From: a virus
IMG/VR virus record: IMGVR_UViG_3300030109_004106
Location: 12,934 to 57,223 of that record
Length of the DNA stretch: 44,290 nt
Direction: 5' to 3' (one strand)
Positions 3,320 to 42,493 of this stretch are shown here, piece after piece. The position numbers and the translations under genes are program-made. Below the pieces are notes generated by a model. The model had not been told where the DNA came from. It searched no databases and saw nothing but the letters and a program-made list of their open reading frames with translations. Position 1 is the stretch's first letter, and each line of letters starts with the position of its first letter.

Positions 3320-6300
3320 TTATCGGTGAGCATAACAGTATTGACTAGAATGTGTAGTCGTGTTCTTACATCTATTACCATCAGCCTTTCTTTTTCTACA
3401 CTTATATCTTTTAGGTGCTTTCCTTTGTTCTTCTTTTTTCTTTTCTTCTCTTTTCTTTTTTCTTTCTTCTTCTTTCTTTTTCTCTCTTTTTTCTTTAACA
3501 CTTTCTTTTGCGGCTTTTAATTCTTCATCTTCAACGCCAACTGACCACCTACTCCATCCAGAAACTAAAGCAACTCTTTGCCATATATCATTATTACTAT
3601 TTAAAGCTTCTTCAACGTTGTTAGCTTTATTAACAACTCTAGCAACAGGTATGTTAGTCAAAGCTTCAGTCCAATTAGCAGCTATAGATAAATTAGGATT
3701 TTCAATTCTAAAACCTATTTCTTTACTAACACCTTTATTGTATTTTTCTGTCCTAATAGCACCTATTAGTTTTCTCATTTTACTACCAATTGGTGGTGAT
3801 AAGTTTATAGCTTCTTGTGCTATATTCCAATCATCTCTTTTCCAAGCTGGACCTTCACGTTCTTCTTTCCATTTTAATAAAACATTTTTAAGAGTAGAAA
3901 CAGCAGCACCATAAATACCTGTACCTCTAAGTAAAGTATCTAACGCTCCGTTTAACGTTCTTAATTCTAGCTTCTTTTTTCTTTCTTCATCTTCATCCCA
4001 ACCAAATAGTAAAAACATTAACCCAGTTTGAAGAGCACCGAATATTAAGTTTTGTGCTACACCGTAATATATTATAGACGATATATTACCCATATCACTT
4101 TGTATTTGATTGTAACCTGGTGTCTTTCTCCTTTTAACTAAATCAGATAATGCTTTCTTAGTTAACCTAGTCATTTGCATTGGAGTATTTTGCCAAGCTA
4201 ATATTAACCTACCCATAGGACCAGCTTGCTGCATTGATATTAGGTCTGGTCTAGAAGACTGTTGTGTTTCTTCAGCCACTTCTTGAAAATCTAAAAACGC
4301 TTGTTTTTTAGCTTCAACTTGTGACATACCTTTTTTTAAATAAGTATTAACTCTATTTCTATAAAAACCAGCACCACCAGCTGATATTGCAAAACTATCC
4401 GCGATCTGCGTTGGTTTAAAACCTTTTTCCAATAAATAAGCTAATATAGCTTCAGGTCTACTTTTACCCTCATTAAAAGCCTTTGTTATTTCAGAAGCAC
4501 TAACATCTATTTGCAATCCAGCTCTTCTTTGTTTTAACATTGGTGAATTAAAAATAAATGCAAAATCTTTCCAGTACTGAGGTTGATTAGCAAAAGCGGC
4601 ACCCGCTTTGAACAAGTTGTTGTCAGACATGTTAATAAAATTAACAGTTGATATTGTTTGCAGCGCTGCAGATCTAATATTAAAAAACATAGTTGCAGCA
4701 ACAGAACCATTTATCCAGTCTAACCACATGTTAACTTGTTTACTTTTACCACCAGGTCTATTAGTACCAGTCTCCATTCTGTATAACATATTTTCTAGAG
4801 CATCTCTAAAATCTGTACCGTATATAGCTTCTATTTTATTTAAGTTTTCTTCTGAAAATATTATATTTTTATTTTGAATCCACTCAGCTATATAATCTTT
4901 TCTACCAGCTTTAAGAACAGTGTTGCTTAGATCGCTAGCTATACTTTGTACAGCCCAATAACCTTCTGGTTGTACATAACCTTCTGGCACTCTAGATATA
5001 ACACTTAACGCGTCAGCAAAGTTTTTTAAATCAGAATTATTATTAACGTGGTTTACTAATTTTTGTATTTGTGATTCTGTTATTCCTGGTATTTCAAATC
5101 CAGCTTTGTCCCATAAATAAACTCTTATGGCGTTATCATTTGTAAAAACTGTTCCAGGTGCTTTTTTGTTTAATTTTTTACCAACTGTTTTAAATTGTTT
5201 TTTAACAGCTTGATAATCATCTGACATCGCCTGTTTGTACGTGTTCCAACCTCTAATACCTTTAGCAAATGGATCAAACAAATGTTTTTTAAACCAAGCA
5301 GCATGAGCATCACCTTCTTTACCTCTACCTAAAAATGAATAAACTAAACCTTTAAAATCTTCTGCTGATGGTGGAACAAAGAATTTTAATCTACCTTTTC
5401 CAACACCCATCTTTCTAGCTTCTTGAGCTGAAAACCTTTTGCCAGCATAAACACCTTTTGATTGCTCAAGTATTGTATTAAAATCTAAAGGAGCTTGTTT
5501 GCTAAACTTAATTTTAGCTTGCACTACTTTAGATTTGATATCTAATTGTTCTAGCACATCCTTAACGGCTTTTACGTTTGGTAGAGCATCATCTACAAAG
5601 TACATATCATTGTATCCCTCTGCAAACTTTTGTAACATCCAGTCGGCTTTAGCTTGACCAGTACTATTACCTAATCCGGTTACATTTTTTCTAGGTATAT
5701 TAATCCCGTTACTAGCTAGCCAATCATGTATAGCTTGTTCGCTTTGTGGTGCTCTAGCTGTAAGTATAAATACGTTTTCAGGTCCATACTTTTTAATTTG
5801 ATTTTTCATCTTATCAAACAATGGACCAGGTTTACCTTTAGTAACCTTATTGAAGTCACTAAAATCAAACTCATAACCATCTTTAGCTAATTGCTCTCCA
5901 ACAAACGGCCATTCATTAGATGCTATACGTTGAACATCATTACCTTTTTTAGCTATAACAAAGTTTTCACTAACACCAACTGTTTCGTCAAAATCAAAAG
6001 TTGACATACCTCTTTTTTCACTATCTACAAAAGTATAGCCTCTTGCCTCCAAATCAGCTTGTATGGCTTTATTTTGTTTTCTAATTAACTCAGCTTGTTT
6101 ATTAAAAGCATCTATAGCATTATTAACTTTATTTATATCTGATTGAGATTTTTTAATTACAGCGGGTTTACCATCTGAGTTAATATTATATACTTCAGCA
6201 AATGTTTTTCCACTTATGTGTGTTATGTTTTTAGGATTTATTCCTTCTCTTATTTTAGCAACATCTGGATGAAAATATCTATCTAGCCAAGAGTCAATTA

Positions 6301-9300
6301 GTAGATTCCAACCTGGACCCATACTCTTACCTCTCTTAGCGTTATTTAATTTTTGATTATCAAAATTATCTAATGCTATTAATTTAAAATCTTTCATAAC
6401 CAACTCGTAGGCTGTATTAAAATCATATCCACCTAGAGAAGAGTGTAGTAAATATAAATAAGATCTAGTTGCTTGCATAGAGTGTTCCCACTCGTATAGC
6501 TTTCCTTTGTAGCCTTTTGGGTTTGCTGAATGACCCAAATATTCAGCACCCATTCTATGAGGATGCTCTGTGTCTTGTCCTACTAAACTTAAGTAATTAC
6601 CCCACACCTTAGCATTGCTAGGATCTTGTTGAAGAGAGTTGTGTATTCTTTGCCAAAACTGTCCATGCATGCTTTTGTGTATTTCGTTTGCTCGCTTAGC
6701 TGTACCATCTTTTTCAGATTTTAAAATAGCTGCTGCAGTCTTACCAAATATATCACCATACGTTTTTCCATATTTATAATTTTTACCTTTACCAGTAAAT
6801 GGTTTTCCAACCTTTAAAGGATCTAGTCCTTTAGCTATTCTTTGTTTTGGTGTTAAATAACCTCCACCTTTTATATCTTCAAATATGTCAGCTCTTTTTT
6901 TATTGTAATAATCATTTATAGTTGTTTCTTTACCATCTACAACTATCTTATCTCCACCTCTATTTTTACCAAAAATTCTATTACTAGGTCTTATGACTGT
7001 TCTCGTAACAAGGTCTACTGGTAAATTAGGAATTAAAACGTTTTCAACATCGTAGAAAAAATTATCAACTTCATCTTTCGTTCTGTGTCTATATATTCCT
7101 TCTCCTTCACCTAATACCTGCTCAAGAATTTTATCAATATGACTTATACCATCTTGTTCAAAGTTAGGATCGACTTGAGCAATAATATTATCTACTTGTC
7201 CTGCACCTTTACTAAACTTTAACGCGGGTGATCTTTCGATTTGCTCACTAATGTTTTCAATAACCTTACCTGGAGTTATCTTACCTTTAAGATTTTTTAT
7301 GTTTAAATAATCTTCAACAAACTCTGGCGTTAACGCTTCTGGTGTAGCGTCTCTACCTATAGCTTTAGAAACCTCACTGATAACCTTGGCTCTATTATTT
7401 CCTCTAGTTCCAGATCGTTTACCAGTTTTAGGATCCACAACAGGAGCATCAATATAGTTTTCAAATTGCCCTGTTGTAGTGTTTAGTCTTTCATAAACTC
7501 TAACTCCAGCAGCTCTTCGCTTTTTACTTTCAGGTGTATTATTTAATATATCAGCTGGTAGTAAACCCTTCTCAACAAACTTAGATAAGTTAGTTAAGTT
7601 AGTTTGTCTACCATGATCTTTAACAAATATCTTTTCAGGTAAAAACTTTTGCATTTGAACCAATGTTTTAATTGGTATAGCTTCTAGTATTCCTTTTCTA
7701 AACTTCTTTAGCTTAGATGGATCATTTAATATTCTAGCTATTGTTGGTTCTAATAAACTTGCTAGGTTTTTTTCATAATCTCTTATAAATCCCTTTTCAT
7801 CTGCAGCTTTCGATGTAGCCAATGCTGTTCTAACTTTCTTAAATATTTCACCTTTACCTAGATTACCTATGCCAATTTCTTTTCTAAGTTTAGATTGTTC
7901 AGCTTTGCTTTCAGTATTTTCAGGTTGAACCTCTGTTTCAAAATAGTTTATATTATCTGTAAATGTTTCCATGCTAGTGTCAACATCTGCCACCTCTCTA
8001 GTTTTACCTTCCGTTGTTCTAGCATCTGTCTCAACTTTCTTGCCTTTAGGCACTTGACCTACCCCAGCTTCTTTAAATATATCATCAGCTCTAAACCTTA
8101 ACTGTCCTTGTATATAACCAAATAAACTATCATTTTCATCTACTTTACCACGCCTACCTCTATTAAAACGGTTAATCATATTGAGAAATTCCCTCGAACC
8201 AAGAACATCGTCAACAAAAGACGGTGGCACGTCTTTTACTTTATATTTAGCGGCTATCAAGTTATCCATTAAATCTTGTTTCTTTAAAGTTTTAATAGCT
8301 CTATCAGCACCAACTCTATCCCACTCCTGTTGCGTGTAGTTTTTATTAGTTTTTGGATCAACAGCTAACTTATCTACAGCTGGTTTAGAGTCTCTAGACT
8401 CTTTTACTGTAGGTTTTGTTGTTTTCTTTTTATCTGCTTTTTCAACACCCTTTATATCTGTCTCTAGTTTTACTCTTGTTATACCTCTTTTTGTTATCTC
8501 ACCTAGTATACCACTTCTATTTATATTTGTGCTATATGTTTTAATAAAATCAAATATAGCTTCACCATCTGTTAAATTTACTTTTTTAAATCCTAATCCT
8601 ACTACAAAATCTTTAAAAGGTTTTATTAATGAACCAGTTTTATTCTTGTCTAGTTTAACATAGTTTCCATGTGTTCTAGTGTCCATTAAATCAGATAGTA
8701 TTTCAAAATACTCCTCCATCTTTCCTTCTTTAAACTGACCATCTGCATCAATATCACCATTTCCACGCATTCTATTTTCTATTCTATCTATAACCCTTTG
8801 ATTACCAGATGTTACTAAATATTGCTTTAGAGCATCAACCATAGGTTTCATGCTCTCATTGTCTGTTTTAAAATTCCTAGACATTACGTAGTGTAAAATT
8901 TCATGAGCATAAACATTTAGTGCCCCAACCTCAGCAGCCTTCTGCTTGTCTATATAAATAGTTTTTGTTTTACCGTCATAAAATAAACCTTCTGCTCCAG
9001 TAGCATCTGCACCTGTTTCTTCTTTTATTGTTTTAATGTATTTATCTGTGGTTTCAAAACTCTTTAATTTAGATTTACTACCAAACCCCCATTTCACGCC
9101 TCTCTTGTCTAATATTTCACGACCTTTAAATACATCTCCAACGTATTCTTCAAAAGCCTCATCTACAAAACCATCTGTTTCTTGATTCAACTTAGCATTG
9201 AGCTGCTTTATAGCATCTCTAGCAGCTTGTCTTCCTTCGTCACTAATGTTTTCTTTAAATGCTAAATCTATTTGGTTATTACGCTCGTCTATAGTATTAG

Positions 9301-11092
9301 CATAATCTAACAGTTCGGCTTGGCTTTTGTTTTTAAATATAGAGTTTAATTCTTGTTTTTTTCTATCTTTCTTTTTATTGAGAATATCAATTCTTTTTTG
9401 AACGTATGGTTTTGTTTTATCATCTGTGTTTTCAAGATCTCTTTTTGCATTTTCTATAGATTCATTTAATTCCGCAACTTCAGCTCTCCATTTTTCAGGA
9501 GCCAAAACATATTGCACTTGTTCTCTATCGGTTTTGGTCACAGCTCTTGTTGAACCAGCTATTGGTCCACCCATCAACCCTCCGATTAAACCATCGTTTA
9601 AAGCCCCCCTGTAATAGTCTCTAAAAGTTTTTTCATCACCATATATTAACTGATCTGAGGCTTGCTGTATATTGTTTGTTACACCCTCAGCAACAGCTTC
9701 ACCAGCAAAACCACCCACAAAACCTCTAACACCTCTTTCAAGAAAACCTCTATTTGCTTCTTTTACAATCTCTTTTTTAGCCCCACTTTTAATTAATCCA
9801 GCAGAATATCTAAGAGCAGTACCACCAATTAACTCCCCAACAAACTCTCCTCCAGCTTTTATAGCTGAGTTTAACCTTATATCATTCATTACCTCGTCTG
9901 TTAGTTCTTCTGCTTCAAACCTTTCTGTAACAGCCTTAGTGTATTCGTCGCCATAAACACCCGTTCCTAAAGCCACACCAGCTACATATGGATTTGCTCC
10001 GGCTAATACTACAGAATATATATTTGAAAACGCTTGCTCACCAGCTAATCCACCAGCTTTTGAATATTCCCCTCTTTCTATAAGATCAATAACACTTAAC
10101 TCTTTACCTTCTTCATCATATTCTTTTATTGCAAATTTATTCAGTTCACTTTGAACCACATCAAAAGCTCTTAAATCTGTTAACTCTCCAGATGCCATCA
10201 TTTCTTCACGTGTTTTACCTTCTTGTATACCTTTAGCTAGCTTTTCACTTTCAATAGCTTTTATAGGTCCTTCTATAAATAAATCGGTTGCTCTGTTAGC
10301 TAATTGAGTGCCCCAACCAACCATCCAATCAGGCATAAATGAATATGCTTTTTCAACAAAGCCCGCATCATCGTGATATAATTCTGGATTATTCTTTATG
10401 TGCATGAACCTTTCTCTCGAATTCATTTCACCAAGTTGAACTGGAGCAAGGTATGCGTTGGCTATTTGATCTGCTCTTTCTTCATCACTAAGATCAGCAT
10501 TATTTTGTATTGATATAATGCGATCATTTATAGTTACTGGTTTTGCACCTGGAAATCTATTTTCAAATTCTTCTAAGTTTTCAACCTCAATCTTAACTGA
10601 CTCACCGTGAATTAAATACTCAGTAAACCTACTTGGTTTTTTGTTTTTATAAGTTTTATCATAAAGTTCTTGATACTTTTTTATTTCATCTAATCCAATT
10701 ATACTACCTAAAAACTCATCAAAATCTGTATCATTTTTTATATCAACATTTATATCTCCTCTTGCTACTTGCTTAACAAACTCTTCATCGTTAAACAAAG
10801 CAACCATTTCTTCTTTAGATTTTTCACTAACAATAGATAAATCACTATTTCCTATAGCATAGTAGCCCTGATTAATAGTAGATGAATCCAAAGAACCATC
10901 TTCCAAGTTGAAACCCGTATTTTCTTGTTGATTGTTTTGGGACTGATTCGTCCCTTGCGACTTTCCCACCTCATCAGATATTAGAGTTGGGTTATATTCT
11001 CCGTATAATTCGAAAAATTTTTCTTCATATTCAGGTGCAACATTTTTGAAATATGTTTTACCTTCAAAATCAAATTGATATCTTTTGTCCAT
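3320..11092 (-). CDS. Giant polyvalent virion protein: zincin, HAD phosphatase and C-terminal zinc knuckle
   Basis: This 2590-aa protein has a modular layout typical of large polyvalent proteins, which phages are thought to inject with their DNA. Residues 1-35 hold a short module starting FDFEGKTYF. At 458-515 lie Gly-zipper segments (GFVGGFAGEAVAEG, GLIGGLMGG) that may insert into membranes. A zincin motif HEILH sits at 730-734. Around 1700-1840 lies a HAD-like phosphatase: DFDET at 1700-1704, LTARAP at 1777-1782, Lys1815, and FVDDALPN at 1832-1839. A hydrophobic segment spans about 2337-2364. A highly charged Lys/Glu helix leads into a zinc knuckle with Cys2565, Cys2575, Cys2586 and His2589. 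I see no RNA-polymerase motif, unlike the giant proteins of gut crAss phages. It follows two other internal-virion-type genes. Enzyme activities are inferred from motifs only. Confidence 0.85.
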   Translation of the reverse strand: MDKRYQFDFEGKTYFKNVAPEYEEKFFELYGEYNPTLISDEVGKSQGTNQSQNNQQENTGFNLEDGSLDSSTINQGYYAIGNSDLSIVSEKSKEEMVALFNDEEFVKQVARGDINVDIKNDTDFDEFLGSIIGLDEIKKYQELYDKTYKNKKPSRFTEYLIHGESVKIEVENLEEFENRFPGAKPVTINDRIISIQNNADLSDEERADQIANAYLAPVQLGEMNSRERFMHIKNNPELYHDDAGFVEKAYSFMPDWMVGWGTQLANRATDLFIEGPIKAIESEKLAKGIQEGKTREEMMASGELTDLRAFDVVQSELNKFAIKEYDEEGKELSVIDLIERGEYSKAGGLAGEQAFSNIYSVVLAGANPYVAGVALGTGVYGDEYTKAVTERFEAEELTDEVMNDIRLNSAIKAGGEFVGELIGGTALRYSAGLIKSGAKKEIVKEANRGFLERGVRGFVGGFAGEAVAEGVTNNIQQASDQLIYGDEKTFRDYYRGALNDGLIGGLMGGPIAGSTRAVTKTDREQVQYVLAPEKWRAEVAELNESIENAKRDLENTDDKTKPYVQKRIDILNKKKDRKKQELNSIFKNKSQAELLDYANTIDERNNQIDLAFKENISDEGRQAARDAIKQLNAKLNQETDGFVDEAFEEYVGDVFKGREILDKRGVKWGFGSKSKLKSFETTDKYIKTIKEETGADATGAEGLFYDGKTKTIYIDKQKAAEVGALNVYAHEILHYVMSRNFKTDNESMKPMVDALKQYLVTSGNQRVIDRIENRMRGNGDIDADGQFKEGKMEEYFEILSDLMDTRTHGNYVKLDKNKTGSLIKPFKDFVVGLGFKKVNLTDGEAIFDFIKTYSTNINRSGILGEITKRGITRVKLETDIKGVEKADKKKTTKPTVKESRDSKPAVDKLAVDPKTNKNYTQQEWDRVGADRAIKTLKKQDLMDNLIAAKYKVKDVPPSFVDDVLGSREFLNMINRFNRGRRGKVDENDSLFGYIQGQLRFRADDIFKEAGVGQVPKGKKVETDARTTEGKTREVADVDTSMETFTDNINYFETEVQPENTESKAEQSKLRKEIGIGNLGKGEIFKKVRTALATSKAADEKGFIRDYEKNLASLLEPTIARILNDPSKLKKFRKGILEAIPIKTLVQMQKFLPEKIFVKDHGRQTNLTNLSKFVEKGLLPADILNNTPESKKRRAAGVRVYERLNTTTGQFENYIDAPVVDPKTGKRSGTRGNNRAKVISEVSKAIGRDATPEALTPEFVEDYLNIKNLKGKITPGKVIENISEQIERSPALKFSKGAGQVDNIIAQVDPNFEQDGISHIDKILEQVLGEGEGIYRHRTKDEVDNFFYDVENVLIPNLPVDLVTRTVIRPSNRIFGKNRGGDKIVVDGKETTINDYYNKKRADIFEDIKGGGYLTPKQRIAKGLDPLKVGKPFTGKGKNYKYGKTYGDIFGKTAAAILKSEKDGTAKRANEIHKSMHGQFWQRIHNSLQQDPSNAKVWGNYLSLVGQDTEHPHRMGAEYLGHSANPKGYKGKLYEWEHSMQATRSYLYLLHSSLGGYDFNTAYELVMKDFKLIALDNFDNQKLNNAKRGKSMGPGWNLLIDSWLDRYFHPDVAKIREGINPKNITHISGKTFAEVYNINSDGKPAVIKKSQSDINKVNNAIDAFNKQAELIRKQNKAIQADLEARGYTFVDSEKRGMSTFDFDETVGVSENFVIAKKGNDVQRIASNEWPFVGEQLAKDGYEFDFSDFNKVTKGKPGPLFDKMKNQIKKYGPENVFILTARAPQSEQAIHDWLASNGINIPRKNVTGLGNSTGQAKADWMLQKFAEGYNDMYFVDDALPNVKAVKDVLEQLDIKSKVVQAKIKFSKQAPLDFNTILEQSKGVYAGKRFSAQEARKMGVGKGRLKFFVPPSAEDFKGLVYSFLGRGKEGDAHAAWFKKHLFDPFAKGIRGWNTYKQAMSDDYQAVKKQFKTVGKKLNKKAPGTVFTNDNAIRVYLWDKAGFEIPGITESQIQKLVNHVNNNSDLKNFADALSVISRVPEGYVQPEGYWAVQSIASDLSNTVLKAGRKDYIAEWIQNKNIIFSEENLNKIEAIYGTDFRDALENMLYRMETGTNRPGGKSKQVNMWLDWINGSVAATMFFNIRSAALQTISTVNFINMSDNNLFKAGAAFANQPQYWKDFAFIFNSPMLKQRRAGLQIDVSASEITKAFNEGKSRPEAILAYLLEKGFKPTQIADSFAISAGGAGFYRNRVNTYLKKGMSQVEAKKQAFLDFQEVAEETQQSSRPDLISMQQAGPMGRLILAWQNTPMQMTRLTKKALSDLVKRRKTPGYNQIQSDMGNISSIIYYGVAQNLIFGALQTGLMFLLFGWDEDEERKKKLELRTLNGALDTLLRGTGIYGAAVSTLKNVLLKWKEEREGPAWKRDDWNIAQEAINLSPPIGSKMRKLIGAIRTEKYNKGVSKEIGFRIENPNLSIAANWTEALTNIPVARVVNKANNVEEALNSNNDIWQRVALVSGWSRWSVGVEDEELKAAKESVKEKREKKKEEERKKKREEKKKEEQRKAPKRYKCRKRKADGNRCKNTTTHSSQYCYAHR

Positions 11093-11125: not shown

Positions 11126-13228
11126 TTATGTAATGTTTTGTAGTGTACCAGCGTTTATACCGCCTTCACCACCTTGTATATGCTTCATTAAAGCATCAGC
11201 ATATTTTTTATCTGTTTCAATAGCGTTAATGAATTTGTCAAATGCTTTTTTCTGTGCTTCAGTTGCACTATTTCTAAACCACTGCATAGGGGTTTTCGTA
11301 AATTTTTTCTTTTGCTCTGGATACCACTTATATTTACCGTTTTCTAATTTAAATCTACCAAAATTCATATCTCCCGCACTAGAATCAATAATAATATCTG
11401 TTCCAGAAACTTTAACACCATCAACCTTAACCATTCCACCCGCTATCTCAGCTGTTATTGGTCTACCATTTTCTAATATATTAGCTTTACCTGGACCATC
11501 ACCCATAACACTAAGATTACTCATCTCAGTATAATTAGTTGTGTATTGATTTTCTTGATTATTTTTAGATTGATTGTTGTTTTGTTTTTTAGGCTTGTTT
11601 TTATTTTCACCATCTTTATTATCTTTTAAACGAACAGCGTTTCTTACTTGGCCTTTTTCGTTTATTATATATTTTTGGACAGTTCCATCTTCACTAGTAA
11701 TTTCAAACTCAGAGTCTCCGTTTTTAATAGCATCTTGATAACCTTTTACAAAATCTGGTTGTAAATTAAACACCTTATTACTTCCGGGGTTTTCCGGATC
11801 TGGTGCAACAAAGCTAGTGTTCCCGTTTTTTAAAGCCTCATCATAAGCTAGCTGGATTTCTTTGTTATTCAAAACATTATACTCTTCTTTTGGATTAGTA
11901 AGCGGCTTGTAATTTCCTTCATCAAGTGGCTGTACATTTCCATACCTGTTTATTAGTTCGTCTCTTTCTTCTTTACTTTTAGCATCGTTAAGCATATCAG
12001 ATAGTTTTTTATCACCAACTGTAATATTATCATATCTACTTGAAGAAAACTCATCTTCGTCAGTGTTTAATACTATTTCTGAAGGAAAATCATCACTACT
12101 TGTTCCATCACCTGTTCCATCACCTGTTCCACCACCAGGTGTTGATTTTATATATCTACCACCTTTTGTAAATTCGTAACCAGGAGCTGTTGTTGTTCTA
12201 CCTTCAACACCGTTGTTCCAGTTTTGTTTTAAATATCCTGTAAAATAGTTAATCATTTCTTGATTAGCTAGATTAGCATATTGAGGATTGTTTATAAGCT
12301 CCATAGCTATTTGTTGAGCATCTTCTGGTGTCACATTACCACCGTTAGTATCTAAAGCCTCAATAGTTTCTTGAGATATACCTAAGCTAGCGTAATCTTG
12401 TGATTGAATTTTTTGCATTAAATCTTGATAAAAAGAAGTAGTACCAAACATGTTGTCAAACGCAACAGACTTTCTATTAGAAGTATCATTTAAAAGAGTG
12501 TTTAACTGTTGTTTTATTAGGCCTTCTGGAAACTCAACATTTTCACCTTCTTTAACCTTTAAAGATGCCTCAGTTATTTTATCTGCTAATCCACCTAGTC
12601 CAGCTTTAAAACCTGAGTCAAATAAATTTTTATCTATATTTTGATTTATGGTAGATATAGAAGTCCACTCTCCATTTATCATAACTCCCATACGTCCTTT
12701 ATCAGCACAGTTTGGCTCGTCATCTGGACAAACCTTTTGAACTAATCTACTATTATCTTTTAGTAAATCTAAATAAGCTTGTCCTTCTGGTGTTCCAGAA
12801 AAATAAGAACTAAGTGCCTCGCCTTCAGCGTTATCACCTACAGATAGCTCAGACAAGTTTAATCTTAAATCTTTATACTCAGCATAATCTTGAGCTTTCA
12901 TGTTTAAATCTCGTATAGATAAAGCTCTACCTTTATTACCACCTAACAAGTAGCCTTTTTTACCTTCCATTAGATTATCGTATAAAGCATCGTACTCAGA
13001 AGATGGCAGATGACCAGCTTCATCTAAAACCTTTTGAGCATAACCTTGATACTCCTGGTTTTTAGTGTTAACATAATTAGTAAAACCATCTGCCACACCT
13101 TGTATAGCGGTTGTTGTTCCAACGGTTCCAAACATTTTAGCTGCACCTAAATCTTGTTTAGCTCTACCTATAGCAGCTTCGCCTGCTATTAATGCACCAC
13201 CTAATGAAGTTGAAGTTTTTTTAGCCAT
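11126..13228 (-). CDS. Internal or injected virion protein (700 aa)
   Basis: The 700-aa protein begins with an Ala/Gly-rich helix (LGGALIAGEAAIGRAKQDLG), has a long helical middle, a Gly/Asp linker TPGGGTGDGTGDGTSSDD near residue 365, and then a charged C-terminal half. A KPKKQNNNQSKNNQEN low-complexity stretch precedes a final small beta region. A single CPDDEPNC pair near residue 166 may form a disulfide. No catalytic motif is visible. It sits between a 329-aa Ala/Gln-rich protein and the 2590-aa polyvalent protein. In podoviruses this position after the tail genes is where the ejected core proteins lie, so I infer an internal virion protein. I cannot name a family. Confidence 0.7.
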   Translation of the reverse strand: MAKKTSTSLGGALIAGEAAIGRAKQDLGAAKMFGTVGTTTAIQGVADGFTNYVNTKNQEYQGYAQKVLDEAGHLPSSEYDALYDNLMEGKKGYLLGGNKGRALSIRDLNMKAQDYAEYKDLRLNLSELSVGDNAEGEALSSYFSGTPEGQAYLDLLKDNSRLVQKVCPDDEPNCADKGRMGVMINGEWTSISTINQNIDKNLFDSGFKAGLGGLADKITEASLKVKEGENVEFPEGLIKQQLNTLLNDTSNRKSVAFDNMFGTTSFYQDLMQKIQSQDYASLGISQETIEALDTNGGNVTPEDAQQIAMELINNPQYANLANQEMINYFTGYLKQNWNNGVEGRTTTAPGYEFTKGGRYIKSTPGGGTGDGTGDGTSSDDFPSEIVLNTDEDEFSSSRYDNITVGDKKLSDMLNDAKSKEERDELINRYGNVQPLDEGNYKPLTNPKEEYNVLNNKEIQLAYDEALKNGNTSFVAPDPENPGSNKVFNLQPDFVKGYQDAIKNGDSEFEITSEDGTVQKYIINEKGQVRNAVRLKDNKDGENKNKPKKQNNNQSKNNQENQYTTNYTEMSNLSVMGDGPGKANILENGRPITAEIAGGMVKVDGVKVSGTDIIIDSSAGDMNFGRFKLENGKYKWYPEQKKKFTKTPMQWFRNSATEAQKKAFDKFINAIETDKKYADALMKHIQGGEGGINAGTLQNIT

Positions 13229-13247: not shown

Positions 13248-14237
13248 TTAGTAAGCTAAACCTTGTTCGTCAGCTTCTTCTCTATAGTTTGTTGTATACA
13301 TTTTACCATTCCACTCAAATGTTCCACCAGCACCCTGTAGAATTCTAGCCGCTCTAAAAGCCTCTTCAAAAGATGTGCCAGTTCCTAGAAGATCTGTGTT
13401 TTCACCAACAGAGCCAACCACCTTAGGTGTTTCGACACCCAGGTTAAGTGCTTTACGTTGTCCTGCTAATGTGTCTTGTAATTTATCTAGTGCTGTTGGA
13501 TTAGTATCTGTTAAAAACCTTCCACCGCCTCCTTCTGGAACCGTTATATCACTAGGAATACCTCCACTTCCTTGACGATTAAATATACTACCTAAAGCAC
13601 CAGCTTCTACACCAGCCAATGCGGCTTGGCCTACGCCCTGTATCATTCCACCTATCGCAGCTGTTTTGGCCATTTTAGCTTGAGCCTGTCTATTTAAAGC
13701 AGCAGCTCTTCTTTGTTGGGCCATACCTAGTAGTGTTTCTGTTCTTTGTCGTTCTAAACCTCTAGAGTATACTTCGCCTTGTCTTTCTAAGCTTTGTAGT
13801 TGACTAGCCATAGCTCTTTCAGATCTTTGATTAGTTGCTTCTTGTCTACCTATACTAGCGGCAGATCTTTGAGAAGCTAGTTGCCCTTGTTGTGCTAGCG
13901 ATTGAGCTAGTGCTGCTATACCACTTCCACCAGCAGCCTCTCTTAAGCCTGACATTATATTAGCTTGACTTTGAGCAAATTGTTGTCTTGAAAACTCTGC
14001 TTCTTTTTGGTTTATAGTCAAGTCTTCCATAACGTTCTCCATGTTTAAATATGGATTACTAGTATCTAAATTTTTATAAGCATCTAGTTGTTGTTGGTAT
14101 TCCGCTTTAGCTCTTCTATTTTGTCTTCTAGCTCTACGCTGTTCTTTTTGAGCTGCCCTCATATTTAATATACCACCACCTATTGAGGTTAAGGCTCCAA
14201 TTCCTGCTGTGGCTATTCCTACTGCTACAAATGACAT
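13248..14237 (-). CDS. Ala/Gln/Arg-rich internal virion protein (ejection-type)
   Basis: The 329-aa protein starts with a Gly/Ala hydrophobic helix (IATAGIGALTSIGGGIL) that could enter a membrane. A very basic helix follows (QKEQRRARRQNRRAKAEYQQQ, 31-51), then a long Ala/Gln/Arg coiled-coil-like region to about 190, and a second Gly/Ala hydrophobic stretch. Composition and order resemble podovirus internal core or DNA-ejection proteins. The C-terminus has FEEAFRAARILQGAGGTFEW followed by NGK.Y.T, a compact motif I have seen at the ends of other phage virion proteins and whose role is unknown to me. It lies two bases after the cupin gene and directly upstream of the other two large internal proteins. 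Confidence 0.75.
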   Translation of the reverse strand: MSFVAVGIATAGIGALTSIGGGILNMRAAQKEQRRARRQNRRAKAEYQQQLDAYKNLDTSNPYLNMENVMEDLTINQKEAEFSRQQFAQSQANIMSGLREAAGGSGIAALAQSLAQQGQLASQRSAASIGRQEATNQRSERAMASQLQSLERQGEVYSRGLERQRTETLLGMAQQRRAAALNRQAQAKMAKTAAIGGMIQGVGQAALAGVEAGALGSIFNRQGSGGIPSDITVPEGGGGRFLTDTNPTALDKLQDTLAGQRKALNLGVETPKVVGSVGENTDLLGTGTSFEEAFRAARILQGAGGTFEWNGKMYTTNYREEADEQGLAY

Positions 14238-40291: not shown

Positions 40292-40549
40292 TTATTCTAC
40301 TATAACTATATCTCTAGAACGTATAACTCGATACATAACATCGTTATATGCTATATCATGTCCTGCTAGTGCGTCATAATATATAGTATCACCTTTACTA
40401 ACAACAGGAACATCGTTGCCTGTAGAAATAACTTTAGATTTTTTGTATCTGTTTGTTTCATCTGTTTCATCTGTTAATATTAAACCACCAACTTTCTTTG
40501 GCCCTTCTTTTACTATATCAACTATTACGTAATCGTTAACTGCCTGCAT
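40292..40549 (-). CDS. groES: GroES co-chaperonin (phage-encoded)
   Basis: The 85-aa protein begins QAVNDYVIVDIVKEGPKKVG, with a mobile-loop-like segment containing GGLILTDETDETNRYKK around 21-37, then KVISTGNDVPVVSKGDTIYY and a closing DVMYRVIRSRDIVIVE. Length and order match a short GroES (about 95 aa in bacteria). The GLIL tripeptide region stands where the IVL loop docks onto GroEL. The gene overlaps the GroEL end by 14 bases, so both are translated together. It caps the chaperonin ring and probably adapts it for phage proteins. Confidence 0.88.
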   Translation of the reverse strand: MQAVNDYVIVDIVKEGPKKVGGLILTDETDETNRYKKSKVISTGNDVPVVSKGDTIYYDALAGHDIAYNDVMYRVIRSRDIVIVE

Positions 40550-42101
40550 TTTCTATTCTTATATTTGATATTACACAATCTGCTGACATTACGGTTAAGG
40601 CTACACTCACAGCATTTTTAAGTGCAGACTTAGTTACAAGCACTGGATCAATAATACCATTATCAACCATCTTTACAAAGTCACCAGTTATAACATTACA
40701 GCCATAACCTTCTTTCATGTTAGTATTAAGTTTCATACCTGCATTATCCATTATAGTATTAAATGGTGAAGATAAAGCATTTAACAATACCTTACCAGCA
40801 TCGCTGGTCGAAATTTTTTGAGATGCATTTAATAGTGCTATACCACCTCCAGGTACAATACCTTCTTGCAGTGCAGCCTTAGTAGCGTATATAGCATCTT
40901 CAACTCTATCTTTCTTTTCTTTAAGTTCTACCTTAGAATTAGCACCCACTTTAATTATACCAACACTACCTGACAACATAGCCAACCTATCTTCTAGTTT
41001 CTTTTTAATAAAACCATTTGATTCATCAGCTAGCTTACTATTAAGCTCATCTATTCTACCTTCAATACCTTCAGTCATACCCTCAAGGGTTAGCACGGTA
41101 TTTCTTTGTTCTGTTACAGCAAACTCAGCTTCACCTAAATGCTCTGGCTTCATAAGATCTAGATCATCTCCTAGCTCTTCATTAAATGCTGTAGCGCCTG
41201 TAAGTATAGCTAAATCTTCTGTAGCATCTTTTTTAGTAGGACCAAAGCCTGGTAAATCAATAATGTTTATTTTTATATTACCTTTTACTTTATTCATTAG
41301 CAGTGCAGCTTTAACTTGTTGAGCTACTGGAGCTACAATAAGTAAAGATCTATTGTTTTTAATAACGTATTCTAATATATCTTGTATTTTTCTTACGTTA
41401 GGTATTTCAGAAGAACATACTAGTACTAGTGGATTATCTAGTTCACATGTTTGTTTTTCGGTATTAGTTACAAAATGAGGTGATGTAAGACCACAATCTA
41501 CTTTAACACCATCTACTATTTCAACATAAGTTTCTTCGCTAGGTGATTCTTCCATCAGCACAACACCTTGTTTACCAACCTTATCATAAGCTTCAGCTAT
41601 AATAGCTCCTAGCTCTTTATCGTTGTTACACGATATAGCACTAACAGCTTCAAGCATATCACCTTTAACATCTATAGCTATGTTATTAAGATATTTAACA
41701 ACATCTTCTAGTGTTTGGTTTACTCCATCTTTTATTTCTCTGATTGTAAGACCATCTGCGACCGCAGCGTCTATTTGTTTGATTAATGCTTCAGCTAATA
41801 CTGTAGCGGTTGTTGTGCCATCACCAGCGTCACGCACTGTGTTTCTAGCAGCTTCTTTAATTAGAGTAGCACCCATGTTTTCTACCGGATCTAACAAGAC
41901 TACGCTTTCTGCAACGGTTACACCATCTTTTGTTATGACCGGTTTGCCACGACCGTCTTCGTAGATAACGCATTTACCTGACGCTCCTAATGTAGATTTA
42001 ACGGCTTGGGCAAGTTTGTTTACTCCTTTAATTACTCTATCCTTGGCTTCACCTCCAAAGTCGAGGTTCTTCACCAATTCACTTGGTAAGTTATATTCCA
42101 T
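40536..42101 (-). CDS. groEL: GroEL chaperonin (phage-encoded)
   Basis: The 521-aa protein has the full chaperonin layout: TKDGVTVAESV at 58-68 (Asp59 as in the nucleotide pocket), the ATP-binding segment DAGDGTTTATVL at 91-102 (Asp94), a complete apical domain, KEKKDRVEDAIYATKAALQE with the catalytic-like Asp402 within RVEDA, and GGGIALL at 418-424. The ATPase residues are therefore kept. It ends ADCVISNIRIENAGS and lacks the Gly/Met-rich tail of bacterial GroEL, a small oddity. It is followed by GroES with a 14-base overlap. The protein folds other proteins in the cytoplasm. The presence of a full pair suggests the phage needs it for its capsid or giant tail proteins. Confidence 0.93.
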   Translation of the reverse strand: MEYNLPSELVKNLDFGGEAKDRVIKGVNKLAQAVKSTLGASGKCVIYEDGRGKPVITKDGVTVAESVVLLDPVENMGATLIKEAARNTVRDAGDGTTTATVLAEALIKQIDAAVADGLTIREIKDGVNQTLEDVVKYLNNIAIDVKGDMLEAVSAISCNNDKELGAIIAEAYDKVGKQGVVLMEESPSEETYVEIVDGVKVDCGLTSPHFVTNTEKQTCELDNPLVLVCSSEIPNVRKIQDILEYVIKNNRSLLIVAPVAQQVKAALLMNKVKGNIKINIIDLPGFGPTKKDATEDLAILTGATAFNEELGDDLDLMKPEHLGEAEFAVTEQRNTVLTLEGMTEGIEGRIDELNSKLADESNGFIKKKLEDRLAMLSGSVGIIKVGANSKVELKEKKDRVEDAIYATKAALQEGIVPGGGIALLNASQKISTSDAGKVLLNALSSPFNTIMDNAGMKLNTNMKEGYGCNVITGDFVKMVDNGIIDPVLVTKSALKNAVSVALTVMSADCVISNIRIENAGS

Positions 42102-42124: not shown

Positions 42125-42493
42125 TTATTCTTTTTCAGCTGCTATTGCTTCAGCTTCCCACGGATGGTTAGGGTGACCTTCCGGCCACCTACCATTTGGT
42201 CCGTCGATAACGGCTTCGCCGTCTACTTCTTTGCGAAAGTAAAGTTTACCTTCCCACATTACTGTATCATCATTGTATGAAGCTCTACCCTCTTCCATTT
42301 GCTCGATGTGTTTCATCTCGTGCTTGATAGCTCTTCTACCTAAATTGCTATTTAAGTCAACATCTTCATCTATATATATAGTGCCATCCATATTTGCCTC
42401 TGCTATTACGTCATTATCTAGTTTTTTCTTAAATAATTGCGTTTTACCAGGTATATTATACTTATTTCTTGATGATCCTAACTTAAATGCCAT
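42125..42493 (-). CDS. HExxH metallopeptidase-like protein
   Basis: The 122-aa protein has the zincin motif in IKHEMKHIEQM: HEMKH is at 58-62. A possible third ligand Glu lies in PWEAEAIAAE near 111-120. The arrangement of HExxH then E..EA about 50 residues on is like minigluzincins and the DUF4157 group. It starts MAFKLGSSRNKYN, as the 102-aa protein two genes away starts MAFKLKRNRKANKK. It starts one base after the stop of the 97-aa gene, upstream of GroEL. It may act as a head-maturation or cell-wall protease. It is too short for a classic prohead protease, so the role is open. Confidence 0.7.
   Translation of the reverse strand: MAFKLGSSRNKYNIPGKTQLFKKKLDNDVIAEANMDGTIYIDEDVDLNSNLGRRAIKHEMKHIEQMEEGRASYNDDTVMWEGKLYFRKEVDGEAVIDGPNGRWPEGHPNHPWEAEAIAAEKE

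Follow-up and report, generated by a model that had tools for sequence, protein, structure and literature searches.

Large polyvalent proteins of phages and conjugative elements have been described by Iyer et al. 2017 (PMC5512222). Their zincin domains carry an HExxH motif plus a glutamate in a later helix, and these zincins have been suggested to process the giant proteins themselves (PMC5512222). In a survey of jumbo phages, RNA repair is described as involving HAD phosphatases together with polynucleotide kinases (PMC7824862). Giant proteins labelled structural are also known from cultured flavophages, i.e. gp21 of elemo (3694 aa), gp74 of Gundel_1 (2482 aa) and gp101 of phi38:1 (1691 aa).

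We analysed a window of 44,290 nucleotides, covering bases 12934-57223 within a 57,223-base IMG/VR virus record. The giant ORF in this window has an ATG start, and its translation contains HEILH at residue 730, DFDET at 1700, LTARAP at 1777, K1815 and FVDDALPN at 1832, all of them where the initial annotation had placed them. The features are collected in Table 1.

Table 1. Features of the giant ORF and of the two genes upstream of it, in positions of the window.
Feature	Position	Strand	Evidence
Giant polyvalent-type protein, 2590 aa	3320..11092	-	motifs; 24 close relatives and hundreds of wider ones
N-terminal module of ~45 residues (YxxxGKxYxxxVxxExExFF)	10958..11092	-	starts most relatives, duplicated in some
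Glycine-rich/hydrophobic segment, residues ~340-515	9548..10075	-	part most commonly shared with cultured giants (Gundel gp74, phi38:1 gp101, elemo gp21)
Zincin-like metallopeptidase domain (predicted), residues ~672-870	8483..9079	-	conservation, model
HEILH, residues 730-734, predicted zinc ligands and general base	8891..8905	-	motif
E793, predicted third zinc ligand	8714..8716	-	invariant, 138/138 relatives' segments
HAD phosphatase domain (predicted), residues ~1695-1860: D1700, D1702, T1778, K1815, D1834, D1835	5513..6010	-	conservation, profile match, fold
Conserved helical C-terminal region, residues ~1890-2540	3473..5425	-	conservation, AlphaFold model, Foldseek
Hydrophobic segment inside the C-terminal region, residues 2337-2364	4001..4084	-	hydropathy
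Zinc-knuckle-like end C-x9-C-x10-C-x2-H, residues 2565-2589	3326..3400	-	optional among relatives
700-aa protein preceding the giant, second in the presumed ejection cassette	11126..13228	-	sequence in 29/78 loci, otherwise position only
329-aa protein, first in the presumed ejection cassette	13248..14237	-	70/78 loci; similar to Gundel gp72

The giant ORF and its relatives

The whole giant ORF gave no Pfam, PHROG or NCBIfam match above the cut-off, and none at E 1e-3 against 50,697 phage records. Searching the zincin and HAD segments by profile, as the initial annotation had proposed, likewise gave nothing above the cut-off in Pfam, NCBIfam or the PDB sequences. Pentatricopeptide and thioredoxin-like PDB matches in the HAD and zincin profile searches were artefacts, with no true homologue among them.

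Searching IMG/VR with the HAD domain gave 331 relatives, many of whose contigs are fragments. The HAD lies within a giant ORF in 80/80 of the best 80 of these 331 relatives, and HExxH is also present in 77/80, where composition would predict 0.012 per protein. This corresponds to roughly 80-fold over expectation in relatives that were chosen by the HAD alone, without regard to HExxH, and that are not independent of each other.

Three relatives have the giant gene broken into two ORFs, and the break always separates the zincin part from the HAD part (L024:3286-13126, 1525+1661 aa; L040:479-10580, 1566+1708 aa; L138:881-12501, 2290+1546 aa). These may be frameshift errors or genuine splits. An unsplit version closely similar to L024 is found in L021.

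The N-terminal module can also be written in a form of ~35 residues, YxVxGxxYxVxxxxExxFLxxxPxA, which has a second site in the giant at about residues 155-195. It is doubled in several relatives (L012, L016, L018, L021), and as a guess it could be a packaging tag.

Gly-zipper patterns, which the initial annotation had placed at 458-515, were seen as [GAS]xxx small-residue repeats at residues 346-356, 415, 460 and 497-509. The hydrophobic segment that it had noted near 2337-2364 coincides with a hydropathy peak (19-residue window) beginning at residue 2345 (1.56), and a further peak, absent from that annotation, begins at 361 (1.43). The cysteine knuckle was found to run as C2565-x9-C2575-x10-C2586-x2-H2589; many relatives have it, but not all.

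Local BLAST of the family giants against the cultured giants gave E 1e-16 to 1e-18 for the glycine-rich segment and E 1e-8 for the C-terminal region, values which relate to a small set and in which the best partner is a relative, not the window protein itself. With Foldseek, the model of the C-terminal region matched giant viral proteins whose names refer to large-polyvalent-protein or ART-PolyVal domains.

The zincin, HAD and kinase domains

Sixteen aligned zincin segments of 13-28% identity have invariant columns, among them H, E, H and a single E further on. In a set of 142 distinct segments whose selection considered HExxH alone, this downstream glutamate (E793 here) was kept in 138/138. 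Since it is invariant, it marks the zincin as a gluzincin, and residues ~672-870 are predicted to form a gluzincin metallopeptidase, in line with the zincin proposed by the initial annotation.

Besides three strands, the AlphaFold model of the zincin has HExxH in one helix and E793 in a later one, the strand and helix layout also described for polyvalent zincins (PMC5512222). The highest-probability PDB match listed was the minigluzincin selecase 4qhi, a weak match (probability 0.20, E 2.9). For the HAD model, the top listed PDB probabilities belonged to HADs (1zjj 0.41, 3bwv 0.28, 1vjr 0.28; E >1), and a 219-aa viral protein was a fold match with a TM of 0.60 to itself. Both models are of low confidence (pLDDT 61 and 63, the latter for the zincin) with PDB fold matches at E >0.1, and the fold support is therefore modest.

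One relative (L048) has HExxxH in place of HExxH, a variant mentioned by Iyer et al. (PMC5512222). Another (L003) shares 74% identity with the window protein from residue 889 on and 28% before, and therefore the zincin half has been exchanged between viruses. Elsewhere in the window (42125-42493), a small protein of 122 aa carries the zincin-like motif HEMKH.

The HAD motifs, i.e. DxDx[T/V], a motif II T/S, a motif III lysine and a motif IV DD, are all present, and the catalytic residues are invariant in 18 aligned domains and nearly so in 80. Few parts of the giant are as well conserved as this region. A profile of the domain gives a full-length match over 162 columns to a standalone HAD encoded by a phage of 462 kb (probability 91.6), and matches the PHROG 'polynucleotide kinase' at 1e-4 to 0.07. 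Residues ~1695-1860 are hence predicted to be a HAD phosphatase, as had been proposed. Both enzyme assignments are based on conservation among the relatives. A separate HAD in elemo gp51 was considered as a counterpart and rejected, with motif I alone aligning.

In a further scan, 58 loci were found to have a P-loop kinase adjoining the HAD. In 55 of these, the kinase interrupts the HAD between its motifs I and II, and in a second arrangement (L165, L166, L167) the HAD is whole and the same kinase follows directly. Kinase and HAD are joined in one protein in these 58 relatives; the giant of the window itself has no kinase. The kinase matches Pfam AAA_33 and Zeta_toxin, and the PHROG 'polynucleotide kinase' at 1e-7. 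Presence of the kinase changes about 7 times on a partial tree of 70 sequences, compared with about 25 changes when the labels are shuffled; the kinase therefore clusters, yet has been gained or lost on several occasions. By profile comparison, T4 PseT gave no detectable match.

The RNA-ligase family PF09414 was not enriched beside the kinase (3/24 kinase-bearing contigs, 7/23 HAD-only contigs), and RtcB occurred in none. The count for the ligase PF09511 is uninformative, since its control also gave nothing. Ligase co-occurrence does not favour RNA repair.

Virus affiliation and gene neighbourhood

The major capsid protein and the terminase match Elemovirus, Cellulophaga, Maribacter and Tenacibaculum phages and an uncultured Manatee Spring podovirus, at identities of 39 to 64% among the matches listed. 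No crAss phages are among the organisms counted in these matches, and a crAss affiliation was rejected; an RNA polymerase match is absent as well. Judged by these sequences, the marine virus is a podovirus-like relative of the flavophages (Elemovirus, Gundelvirus, Callevirus) and is not crAss-like. The initial annotation had pointed to a missing RNA polymerase domain as setting this phage apart from gut crAss phages. Pfam indeed finds no such domain, but its absence is not distinctive here and the contrast was misplaced.

Within bacterial and archaeal genomes, the HAD was found on two contigs only, from two bacterial bins. These are probably viral contigs, and therefore no firm host assignment is made.

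In the cultured relatives, a giant 'structural protein' occupies the same position after the tail genes. It is preceded there by proteins of ~200 aa and 450-550 aa, and in the window by proteins of 329 and 700 aa. The 329-aa protein resembles the 'structural protein' gp72 of Gundel (E 1e-5), and lies upstream of the giant in 70 of the 78 loci whose flank is long enough. We presume that the genes for the 329-aa, 700-aa and 2590-aa proteins form an ejection cassette. The gp14-gp15-gp16 ejection proteins of T7 make up a similar small, middle and giant three-gene cassette after the tail genes, the likeness being one of size and position only.

Because of homology and synteny with the flavophage giants labelled 'structural', virion packaging of the giant is likely; the main text of the Gundel paper makes no mention of mass spectrometry.

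Other genes were also observed. GroES (85 aa) adjoins a GroEL-like protein (521 aa) at 40292-42101 of the window, as in elemo and Manatee Spring phages. A DUF5675 protein (Pfam E 2e-26), possibly involved in lysis, is encoded at 1057-1548. A PAP2-family phosphatase gene (L026:9309-9863) belongs to the genome part beyond the window, and L026:8869-9303 encodes a protein of 144 aa of odd composition, consisting mostly of repeated K/M-rich words (AMKMKK).

Proposed function and comparison with known systems

Motifs, conservation, architecture, synteny and homology to annotated structural giants are directly established. We think it reasonably probable that the giant is a polyvalent protein and the largest member of a three-gene ejection cassette, which is ejected, is cut by its zincin and acts through its HAD on nucleotides or nucleic-acid ends; here the virion location in the window virus, the proteolysis with its target and the phosphatase substrate are what we infer. 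The protein would begin with a short N-terminal module, followed by a membrane-active segment rich in glycine, the gluzincin, the HAD and a helical C-terminal region. Packed in the capsid, it would be ejected together with the DNA, and its glycine-rich and hydrophobic segments, partly embedded in the membrane, may help to form the passage. The zincin would then cleave the giant itself, or a neighbouring virion or host protein, so that modules are freed in the cell. A freed HAD would dephosphorylate nucleotides or nucleic-acid ends early in infection, and in the relatives the fused P-loop kinase could provide the matching phosphorylation.

The initial annotation had read the combination of protease and phosphatase as an early attack on the host. 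Zincin and HAD would then hit host proteins or metabolites and shut down or reprogram the cell, and the kinase of the relatives would be a zeta-toxin-like UDP-GlcNAc kinase weakening the wall. Such a wall-weakening role has been proposed for zeta-like kinases in polyvalent proteins (PMC5512222). The Zeta_toxin match at 1e-9 besides AAA_33 and a UniProt relative bearing the name UDP-N-acetylglucosamine kinase agree with it, and the zincin half is swapped and highly variable, as an arms-race module would be. However, polynucleotide-kinase PHROGs match the kinase about equally well, no host target is known, and the pairing with a phosphatase is left unexplained. The kinase next to the HAD in 58 relatives points to nucleotide or nucleic-acid end chemistry rather than to host attack, and for zincins of this class the giant itself is the proposed substrate (PMC5512222). 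Self-processing together with such end chemistry is at least as likely as an attack on host components, which we consider unlikely.

In a mainly structural role, the giant would serve as a tail or internal scaffold and its enzyme domains would act in assembly only, the zincin as a maturation protease and the HAD as a minor or vestigial activity. The label of the cultured homologues would agree with such a role; neither domain occurs in phi38:1 gp101 or in the Panino giant, and the core function is therefore independent of both. We find a mainly structural role improbable, as HAD catalytic residues fixed across 80 loci and a kinase repeatedly gained or lost (about 7 changes on the partial tree) are unlike a vestigial activity. 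Far less credible still is a reading of the motifs as products of chance or as degenerate relics within a giant helical protein. Low-confidence models and libraries with no match above the cut-off would fit this, but HExxH about 80-fold above expectation, an unselected glutamate kept in 138/138 and a HAD region ranking among the giant's most conserved parts argue strongly against it.

In a bolder and less probable reading, the particle would deliver a ready-made enzyme that heals nucleic-acid ends: the HAD would remove 3' phosphates, the kinase of the relatives would phosphorylate 5' ends, and the zincin would release the module after entry. If so, broken phage DNA, or host tRNAs that defence nucleases have cut, could be repaired before phage gene expression, which would mean virion-borne repair or counter-defence rather than attack. 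More generally, the giant may allow the virus to bring in its zinc protease and phosphatase, along with the kinase where a relative has one, as ready-made enzymes at infection. The zincin-HAD(-kinase) architecture is defined here for an abundant and mostly uncultured phage group (331 IMG/VR loci match the HAD), is linked to the giants of cultured flavophages, and offers two enzyme sites open to mutation and assay.

Polynucleotide kinase-phosphatases (T4 PseT, PNKP) are similar in that a P-loop kinase adjoins a HAD, as in the 58 relatives. They differ in that the PseT profile is unmatched, the window protein has no kinase and the domains lie inside a giant protein. N4 virion RNA polymerase is likewise a giant that is ejected and carries a fused zincin (PMC5512222), whereas no RNA polymerase domain was detected in the giant of the window.

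The giants of Tenacibaculum phage Gundel_1 (gp74), Flavobacterium phage elemoA (gp21), Cellulophaga phage phi38:1 (gp101) and Maribacter phage Panino share the genome position and a homologous glycine-rich segment. A zincin is found in elemo gp21 (32.6 bits) and HEFGH in Gundel gp74 and in Manatee, whereas HExxH is absent from the giants of phi38:1 and Panino. None of these giants of Elemovirus, Gundelvirus and Callevirus, nor that of Panino, has a HAD or a kinase. By sequence comparison, the giants appear to be layered, with the glycine-rich core being the widest, the zincin present in some cultured giants and the HAD confined to the group of the window.

Compared with the large polyvalent proteins, the giant has no Pfam LPD domain (LPD14 was seen in one relative in each of two alignments), and the main text on that class (PMC5512222) contains neither 'phosphatase' nor 'polynucleotide kinase'. 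It shares with them the very large size, the multidomain make-up, a zincin hub of HExxH and later-helix glutamate, and presumed injection. As had been proposed, the protein is of the large polyvalent type by its size, its domains and its homology and synteny with giants labelled structural. The best reading is that the zincin-HAD giant adds to the polyvalent-protein class, joining unlike activities in one very large multidomain protein as that class does.
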